From contig CASDXV010000002.1 of assembly GCA_949285255.1 (NCBI GenBank), forward strand, positions 62,001 to 126,000: a stretch of 64,000 nt of DNA. The letters run 5' to 3'. Of the stretch, positions 55,817-58,645 are shown one piece after another (the first letter of the stretch is position 1; each line of letters starts with the position of its first letter). This DNA is from an uncultured bacterium (GTDB lineage: Bacteria; Cyanobacteriota; Vampirovibrionia; Gastranaerophilales; Gastranaerophilaceae). The translations under genes and the position numbers were made by a program. A model generated the notes under the pieces. That model did no database searches and was not told the origin of the DNA. It saw only the letters and a program-made list of their open reading frames with translations.

Positions 55817-56158
55817 TTACCATTTTTTAAATATGAAAAATACCGCAAGAATTATAAAAAAGAACCCGACAAGGTAGTTCCACTTGAACTGTTCTTTTAG
55901 ATAAGTGACAGAGAATATACTAAATACCACAAGGGTTATGACCTCTTGAATTGTTTTTAGTTGAGCGGTTGAATAAGCGTATGAGCCTATACGATTTGCA
56001 GGCACTTGAAAACAATATTCAAAAAAGGCTATACCCCAGCTAACTAAGATTACAAGCCATAATACACTGCTTTTAAAGCGCAAATGTCCATACCAAGCAA
56101 ATGTCATAAAGACATTTGATATAGTCAATAATACAATTGGTGCAAGCGATTTCATCAT
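55817..56158 (-). CDS. DUF486 / DMT-superfamily small membrane protein
   Basis: 113 residues from the ATG at 56158 (an upstream TTG at 56176 would start inside the TACAAT -10 element). Four membrane helices: PIVLLTISNVFMTFAWYG, VLWLVILVSWGIAFFEYCF, VITLVVFSIFSVTYL and LVGFFFIILAVFFIF. The central QVPANRIGSYAYSTAQLKTI is the hallmark of the DUF486 family, relatives of small multidrug-resistance transporters. Substrate unknown. It is separate from dnaE and has its own promoter within the gap shared with the putative small RNA. Confidence 0.85.
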   Translation of the reverse strand: MMKSLAPIVLLTISNVFMTFAWYGHLRFKSSVLWLVILVSWGIAFFEYCFQVPANRIGSYAYSTAQLKTIQEVITLVVFSIFSVTYLKEQFKWNYLVGFFFIILAVFFIFKKW

Positions 56159-56208
56159 AACCGTTTTATTGTACAACGAAAAAAAATTATAAAAATATGT
56201 AAAATATA

Positions 56209-56237
56209 TTTACATATACTTGCTATTTACATATAAT
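56209..56237 (+). promoter_or_regulatory. Promoter of putative small RNA
   Basis: TTTACA (56209-56214), a 17-bp spacer and TATAAT (56232-56237): one mismatch to the housekeeping consensus with ideal spacing. The start should be near 56244. TATTTACATATA occurs twice, once over the -35 and once over the spacer/-10 boundary, which might be an operator. Confidence 0.65.
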
Positions 56238-56243
56238 TTGAAT

Positions 56244-56358
56244 ATTGTATTTATATGTTTCAAATCTTAATTAAGATTTGAAATTAAAAAAGGTTTGCCC
56301 GTCGTTCCAGACGTCTCAGGGCAAAGGAATCCGCCTCATTTTTTATGGGGCGGTTTTT
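56244..56358 (+). ncRNA. Putative structured small RNA, about 115 nt
   Basis: Between the promoter and an intrinsic terminator there is no open reading frame but strong secondary structure: (1) a perfect 26-bp palindrome, 56258-56283; (2) a stem TTTGCCC/GGGCAAA (56294-56300 with 56319-56325) enclosing a GTC/GAC hairpin (56301-56303 with 56310-56312); (3) the loop GTTCC (56304-56308) can pair with GGAAT (56326-56330), forming a pseudoknot; (4) the terminator. The next gene on the plus strand begins 1.2 kb away, so it is not a leader of a coding gene. No known class fits. Existence as a transcript is inferred from sequence alone. Confidence 0.5.
56331..56358 (+). terminator. Intrinsic terminator of the putative small RNA
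   Basis: 9-bp stem with one G-T pair (56331-56339 with 56345-56353) and a T5 loop, followed by TTTTT on the plus strand. The minus-strand reading has no T-run, so it does not serve the ATPase gene that ends at 56364. Confidence 0.8.
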
Positions 56359-56363
56359 CCGTT

Positions 56364-57563
56364 TTAATATTGATTTATAAACTGCTGCGCAACACGAGGC
56401 GACCTTGACGCCTTTAAAAGCGCAAAGCGCTCAGCTTTTATGTCAAAATCTTCTCTTATGGGAATGTTTTTATCCTGTGCAATTTTTCTTGCAATTTCAA
56501 GGAACTTGTCTTTATTTGGCGCAAGGAAAGTAAGCGTTACGCCGAATCTGTCTGAGAGTGATGCGTTTTCATCAATAGTATCTGCCAGATGAACTTCATT
56601 TCCCTCGCGGGAAGAAAAAGTTTCTTTTACTATATTTCTTCTGTTTGTTGTGGCATAAATCACTATATTGTCGCTTCTTTTTGAAAGTGCACCCTCAAGA
56701 GCTGATTTTACCGCGCTTAGATTTTCATCATCCTGAGAAAAAGACAAATCATCTATAAAAACAATAAACCTAGCAGGGATTTTTGACAATTTATCCAAAA
56801 GCTTATCAAGATTGTTTAAATTACTTTTTAAAATTTGTACAATTTTTAACCCTGAATTTTTAAACTCGTTATAGACGGCTTTAACGCTTGAGGACTTGCC
56901 GCAGCCTCTATCACCGTAGAGTAAAATATTGTTTGCAACTTTTCCGTTAAGCAAAAGCTTTGTATTTTCAATAAGAGTATTTTGCTGAGTTTTATAGTCT
57001 TTTAAGCCATTAAATGTTATATCGTCAGTCTTTTCAACATACTCTAGAACATTATCTTTTGTATAAATAAAAGCGCCGTATTTTGCATAAAGCCCGTAGC
57101 AGTTGGCTTGTACATAAGAACATAAAGTATCGTAGTCAACAACAGGAGTATCTGATGTAAAATCAGAGAGAAGATTTACTATTTCATCAGAATTTTCAAA
57201 CTGTTTTTTCAAAACTTCTTTAATCTTCTGAGAGTTAATTTTTGACAGTTCAAAAAGTATCTCAAGTTCTTTTTTTGCAGCGTTTACAATATTTTCATTG
57301 AGCGGATTTTTTGCTGAAATATTTTTTGTAAAAACATTTTCATCATGTTTAATTAAGTCATTTAAATAAAGAGAAAAATCTCCCTCAAAAGGGCTTTCAT
57401 ATAGCACTTTTAAAAATTTTGAATAATATAAAACAGCCTCACTAAGAGATTTAGCACTGTATGAAAAAACACCTAAAAGGTTGACTATTGCTTTATCTTT
57501 GAGAATGTTTGAGAAAATACTCAAAGTAAAAAGTTTATAATTTAAAATCAAAAGCTCATTCAT
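56364..57563 (-). CDS. DUF815-family AAA+ ATPase
   Basis: 399 residues. The C-terminal two-thirds are a DUF815-type P-loop ATPase: Walker A LLYGDRGCGKSSSVKAV near 208, Walker B RFIVFIDDLSFSQDD near 262, sensor IYATTNRRNIVKETFS and the SLSDRFGVTLTF segment. The N-terminal 180 residues are helical with no recognised domain. The cellular role of DUF815 proteins is unknown to me. A TATATT preceded by TGA (extended -10) ends 6 nt before the ATG. Confidence 0.88.
   Translation of the reverse strand: MNELLILNYKLFTLSIFSNILKDKAIVNLLGVFSYSAKSLSEAVLYYSKFLKVLYESPFEGDFSLYLNDLIKHDENVFTKNISAKNPLNENIVNAAKKELEILFELSKINSQKIKEVLKKQFENSDEIVNLLSDFTSDTPVVDYDTLCSYVQANCYGLYAKYGAFIYTKDNVLEYVEKTDDITFNGLKDYKTQQNTLIENTKLLLNGKVANNILLYGDRGCGKSSSVKAVYNEFKNSGLKIVQILKSNLNNLDKLLDKLSKIPARFIVFIDDLSFSQDDENLSAVKSALEGALSKRSDNIVIYATTNRRNIVKETFSSREGNEVHLADTIDENASLSDRFGVTLTFLAPNKDKFLEIARKIAQDKNIPIREDFDIKAERFALLKASRSPRVAQQFINQY

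Positions 57564-57634: not shown

Positions 57635-58645
<1,011 letters not shown>

Follow-up and report, generated by a model that had tools for sequence, protein, structure and literature searches.

The DNA between two minus-strand genes of the window (the whole stretch of 64,000 nucleotides that was analysed) is predicted, from its sequence and its conservation, to hold a genuine autonomous small-RNA gene on the plus strand, with a transcript of about 115 nt. The RNA is a new family of a well-known kind with a narrow range: a DNA search found the unit, promoter included, in 11 out of 15 genomes of the genus, at 76–99% identity and each time adjoining the gene dmt. We see about an even chance that it acts as a trans-acting antisense small RNA (sRNA) independent of Hfq. 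Gastranaerophilales are the non-photosynthetic sister group of cyanobacteria and live in animal guts, and our literature search turned up no study of their small RNAs. The value of the family lies mainly in extending the RNA inventory of this poorly studied group, with no new mechanism; it offers a testable RNA gene with a covariance-backed structure, a clear gain-or-loss history, a candidate pairing region and hosts that lack Hfq.

The features of the locus are collected in Table 1. We placed the start of the RNA about 7 nt past the −10 hexamer, and its end at or near UUUUUCC. The two promoter hexamers are separated by a 17-bp spacer (56215–56231), and TTTACA-17-TATAAT, of the sigma-70 type, scores highest among the 10 promoter-like sites found within the 2 kb around it (11 out of 12 matches). 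The gene is divergent from dmt and convergent with the ATPase gene. The first plus-strand gene downstream starts at 57647 (the ORF reads as ilvC), 1.29 kb off and behind the convergent gene, so the RNA is not a leader. An earlier note on this DNA, made from the letters alone, had described the promoter, the 26-bp palindrome, the TTTGCCC/GGGCAAA stem, the GTTCC/GGAAT complementarity and the U-tailed terminator, all of which are present where it placed them; its view of a complete plus-strand unit that gives a free RNA holds as well, given the conserved promoter and terminator and the distance to the next plus-strand gene.

Table 1. Features of the small-RNA locus, in window coordinates
Feature	Position	Strand	Conservation or support
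Upstream neighbour, DMT_6 (DUF486) small membrane protein gene (dmt)	55817..56158	-	Pfam PF04342, E 9.6e-48
Inverted repeat TGTAAA-N5-TTTACA over the −35 box, candidate operator	56198..56214	.	arms in 10/11 relatives
−35 hexamer TTTACA	56209..56214	+	same in 10/11 relatives; TTTATA in G011
−10 hexamer TATAAT	56232..56237	+	same in 10/11 relatives; degenerate in G011
5' segment AATATTGTATTTRTAT, candidate pairing region	56241..56256	+	15/16 columns invariant across the 11 sequences
Small-RNA gene, predicted	56244..56360	+	76–99% identity in 10 other genus genomes; structure counts; fold z = −5.8
AU-rich 5' hairpin / perfect palindrome TTTCAAATCTTAATTAAGATTTGAAA	56258..56283	+	92.7% of cells paired; two inner pairs compensated
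Central stem-loop TTTGCCC (56294–56300)/GGGCAAA (56319–56325)	56294..56325	+	100% of cells paired; two pairs compensated
Proposed pseudoknot GTTCC (56304–56308)/GGAAT (56326–56330)	56304..56330	+	not conserved
Loop motif CCAGAC-N-TCTC, candidate seed	56307..56317	+	CCAGAC invariant in 11/11
Intrinsic terminator: stem 56331–56353, U-tract 56354–56358, conserved CC	56331..56360	+	98% of cells paired; four pairs compensated
Downstream neighbour, DUF815 AAA ATPase gene	56364..57563	-	Pfam PF05673, E 1.2e-77

The predicted transcript folds at −40.8 kcal/mol, 5.8 standard deviations below its shuffles, and the minimum-energy fold consists of the 5' AU-rich hairpin, the central stem-loop and the terminator. 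In the alignment of 11 sequences 95.9% of the cells of this nested structure are paired and eight pairs have changed on both sides (e.g. C-G to U-A in the central stem of G005, G008 and G003). None of 500 shuffled alignments scored as high; related sequences without structure can also beat shuffles, and the slid controls, which retain relatedness, are 33–52% paired. Promoter, transcript and terminator are conserved jointly, and identity drops just past the terminator. Terminator-like sites numbered five against 0.9 expected. In the terminator stem the departures from Watson–Crick pairing are G-U (33) and never A-C (0), or 11 against 0 when two constant GG:UU pairs are left out, which places the terminator on the plus strand.

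No Rfam 15 family matches the region at the gathering score, and a permissive search with six relatives (E up to 5) gave no meaningful match, in agreement with the earlier note, which had assigned the RNA to no known class. A coding role, which the note had also discounted, was rejected: in a frame comparison across the relatives no reading frame of the unit is conserved on either strand. The RNA resembles 6S RNA (RF00013) in being a stable non-coding bacterial RNA gene; 6S RNA, however, is one long bulged hairpin, whereas this RNA has three separate hairpins in 115 nt. A 6S-like role finds no support: the RF00013 covariance model has no match at the small RNA. The sole 6S-like match in the 15 genomes lies on another contig of G005 (L250, G005:C5:23894-24074) and scores 39.7 bits against a cut-off of 46.4; the 6S RNA of the genus is probably divergent.

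The same neighbourhood is found in public records of Candidatus Gastranaerophilales assembled from gut metagenomes, one of them named Galligastranaerophilus. Three genomes of the genus (G001, G004 and G014) lack the small RNA and have the ATPase gene and dmt about 20 nt apart, and the assembly of the fifteenth (G010) lacks the dmt locus. In a sigma-factor tree the three form one clade (support 95/95), with the carriers on the other side together with G010, so that the distribution fits a single gain or a single loss of the RNA on the basis of this one gene tree. Beyond the genus, the core-motif pattern was found in none of 368 genomes of other genera of the family (the 11 genus members are the only hits among 383 family genomes), and a covariance model run on 146 family genomes gave strong matches in the genus only; its weak matches elsewhere (E 0.005–0.1) are mostly unrelated terminators by eye. 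Phage and plasmid records gave no match to the small RNA. Two pattern matches in viral contigs are unrelated sequence without the stem, and were taken as chance.

Two stretches of the RNA, AATATTGTATTTRTAT and the loop CCAGAC-N-TCTC, are conserved beyond the demands of pairing, a pattern typical of stretches that pair with another RNA or bind a protein. CCAGAC stays unchanged although its short partner GTC is altered in G003 and G011, and this invariance without a conserved helix partner indicates a role for the sequence itself. Hfq (PF17209) was found in none of the 15 genomes, with positive controls. With these conserved stretches, no Hfq, and a CsrA for which the single AAAGGA of the RNA would be a poor titrator, we favour an Hfq-independent trans-acting antisense sRNA. 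Transcription from the sigma-70 type promoter would yield about 115 nt of plus-strand RNA with the 5' AU-rich hairpin, the central stem-loop and the intrinsic terminator; this RNA would pair with mRNAs in trans through the loop CCAGAC-N-TCTC and/or the 5' end AAUAUUGUAUUURUAU, without Hfq, and its terminal hairpins may stabilise it. It shares with trans-encoded antisense sRNAs the intergenic position, short length, sigma-70 promoter, several hairpins, U-tailed terminator, unpaired conserved stretch and narrow range, but differs from them in that its genus lacks Hfq and that it matches no Rfam family.

Targets were predicted over nearly the whole of G000 and roughly half of G008 (701 ortholog pairs), and the small RNA did no better than its shuffled versions. 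Full-length accessibility-weighted duplexes did not exceed the shuffles (a weak test, which penalises a folded RNA), and duplexes with the segments were no better than those with shuffled segments. Seeds of 7–9 nt were above the shuffled mean, mostly because the CAT of the terminator loop matches start codons, and the counts of 8- and 9-mer seeds were within the shuffled maximum. Loop matches of at least nine pairs numbered two, against 0.8 ± 1.3 expected. The most plausible single target, to be read as a lead from sequence complementarity, is a sigma-70 family factor, the Shine–Dalgarno region of which (AGGAGATGTCT / AGGAGATGTCTTTTATG) is complementary to AGACRTCTC. Full pairing, with wobble allowed, is found in nine out of 11 carriers (the site is broken in G005 and has a mismatch in G003), and the site is also found in G004, which is without the small RNA. 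In most of the genus a strongly conserved stretch, AAAATTATGGTTAGAAATATTTAGGAGATGTCTTTTATG, also lies some 40 nt ahead of the start codon of this sigma-factor gene (L230–L244), which may be regulated in its own right. Another stretch, TATATAAATACGATATAC, precedes the first gene of a flagellar gene cluster (L192:9790-10092, minus strand, contig C15 of G000); it is conserved in both G000 and G008 and looks like a promoter of the flagellar type. It could form 16 pairs with the small RNA's 5' end; as a target the site was rejected, being AT-rich and promoter-DNA-like, with a duplex energy that one out of 20 shuffles also reached. It is highly improbable, in our estimate, that the RNA is a clade-specific regulator that arose once inside the gene pair and controls the translation of the sigma-70 family factor or of flagellar genes through CCAGAC-N-TCTC in hosts with CsrA and without Hfq.

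A possible, if unlikely, alternative to trans action is that the element serves in cis the minus-strand pair of ATPase gene and dmt, either as an attenuator or terminator between the genes or as an RNA antisense to an mRNA that they share. Where the small RNA is absent the two genes are so close that such an mRNA is plausible, and the small RNA would then be antisense to its spacer. At 56297–56312 the minus strand shows the central stem with a T-run behind it, which resembles a weak intrinsic terminator; this T-run, however, is interrupted in G005 and G012, and the covariation of the terminator fits the plus strand. An attenuator would also leave the conserved plus-strand promoter unexplained. 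In G011, and only there, a 285-aa minus-strand ORF without a Pfam match lies between the ATPase and small-RNA genes (L012:1646-2503), and as this extra gene separates the two, the small RNA is not the terminator of the ATPase gene. Antisense action in cis is possible alongside action in trans.

The palindrome admits another reading: it would act as DNA, an operator lying in the initially transcribed region, and an autoregulated switch would control the small RNA. Its arms, TTCAAAT and ATTTGAA, are nearly invariant with little compensation, and the length is fixed at 24 bp in all 11 sequences; the 5' hairpin could therefore be a DNA operator as well as, or in place of, an RNA hairpin. Perfect palindromes of at least 24 bp are rare in the host genome of 1.6 Mb (only six in the 1.56 Mb used for pattern counts, TTTCAAATCTTAATTAAGATTTGAAA among them). 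Two inner pairs, on the other hand, show compensatory changes, and the pattern TTCAAAT-N10-ATTTGAA occurs once in the 1.56 Mb, so that no regulon is seen. We regard the autoregulated switch as unlikely; RNA hairpin and operator could coincide.

Protein binding by the conserved parts, with titration or modulation of the protein in place of mRNA pairing, is more doubtful. CsrA is one example of such a partner: it is encoded in 14 out of 15 genomes of the genus, and the AAAGGA between the 3' hairpins is present in 10 out of 11 sequences (AAAGGG-A in G012). Titrating RNAs of the CsrB kind, however, carry many GGA sites. The small RNA lacks multiple GGA motifs in hairpin loops: its only GGA lies outside the loops and can pair with the 3' UUCC, and the clade without the RNA also has CsrA. 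We give protein binding in place of mRNA pairing a slim chance.

Least tenable, and extremely improbable, is the reading of the earlier note in which GTTCC and GGAAT form a pseudoknot through which a ligand or protein could act on termination. The complementarity does abut the terminator in the window genome, where stem-loop, downstream loop complementarity and adjoining terminator recall preQ1, fluoride and similar pseudoknotted riboswitches. These, however, have what the small RNA lacks, namely a conserved pairing, a downstream gene to control on the same strand and an Rfam match. The note had named the loss of stem and loop pairing in relatives as a refutation; the relatives keep the stem in all 11 cases and lose the loop pairing in most, so that this refutation applies to the loop pairing and spares the stem. 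The full set of five GTTCC/GGAAT pairs is confined to G000, G002 and G009 (93–99% identical to one another), and in the remaining eight carriers two invariant C-G pairs stay, the middle pair is mostly G.A and the outer pairs fail. As the two C-G pairs are invariant, they are neutral on the question. For this second helix 72% of the cells are paired and convincing compensation, which the note had proposed to look for, is absent. In the minimum-energy fold the GGAA takes as its partner the UUCC that directly follows the U-tract, and a systematic search for helices kept by 80% or more of the sequences gave no alternative pseudoknot with compensatory changes. With the pairing lost in eight out of 11, compensation absent and no conserved alternative, the pseudoknot is not supported, and control of termination by a ligand or protein is left unsupported with it.

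The repeats around the promoter also bear on regulation. The earlier note had taken a doubled TATTTACATATA over the promoter as a sign of it, and two copies are indeed present (56207–56218 and 56224–56235); the relatives carry TATTTATATATA at the position of the second copy, so the exact doubling is local. The inverted repeat TGTAAA-N5-TTTACA is mostly conserved and makes, from its sequence, the better operator candidate; its pattern occurs three times in 1.56 Mb, against 0–1 expected.
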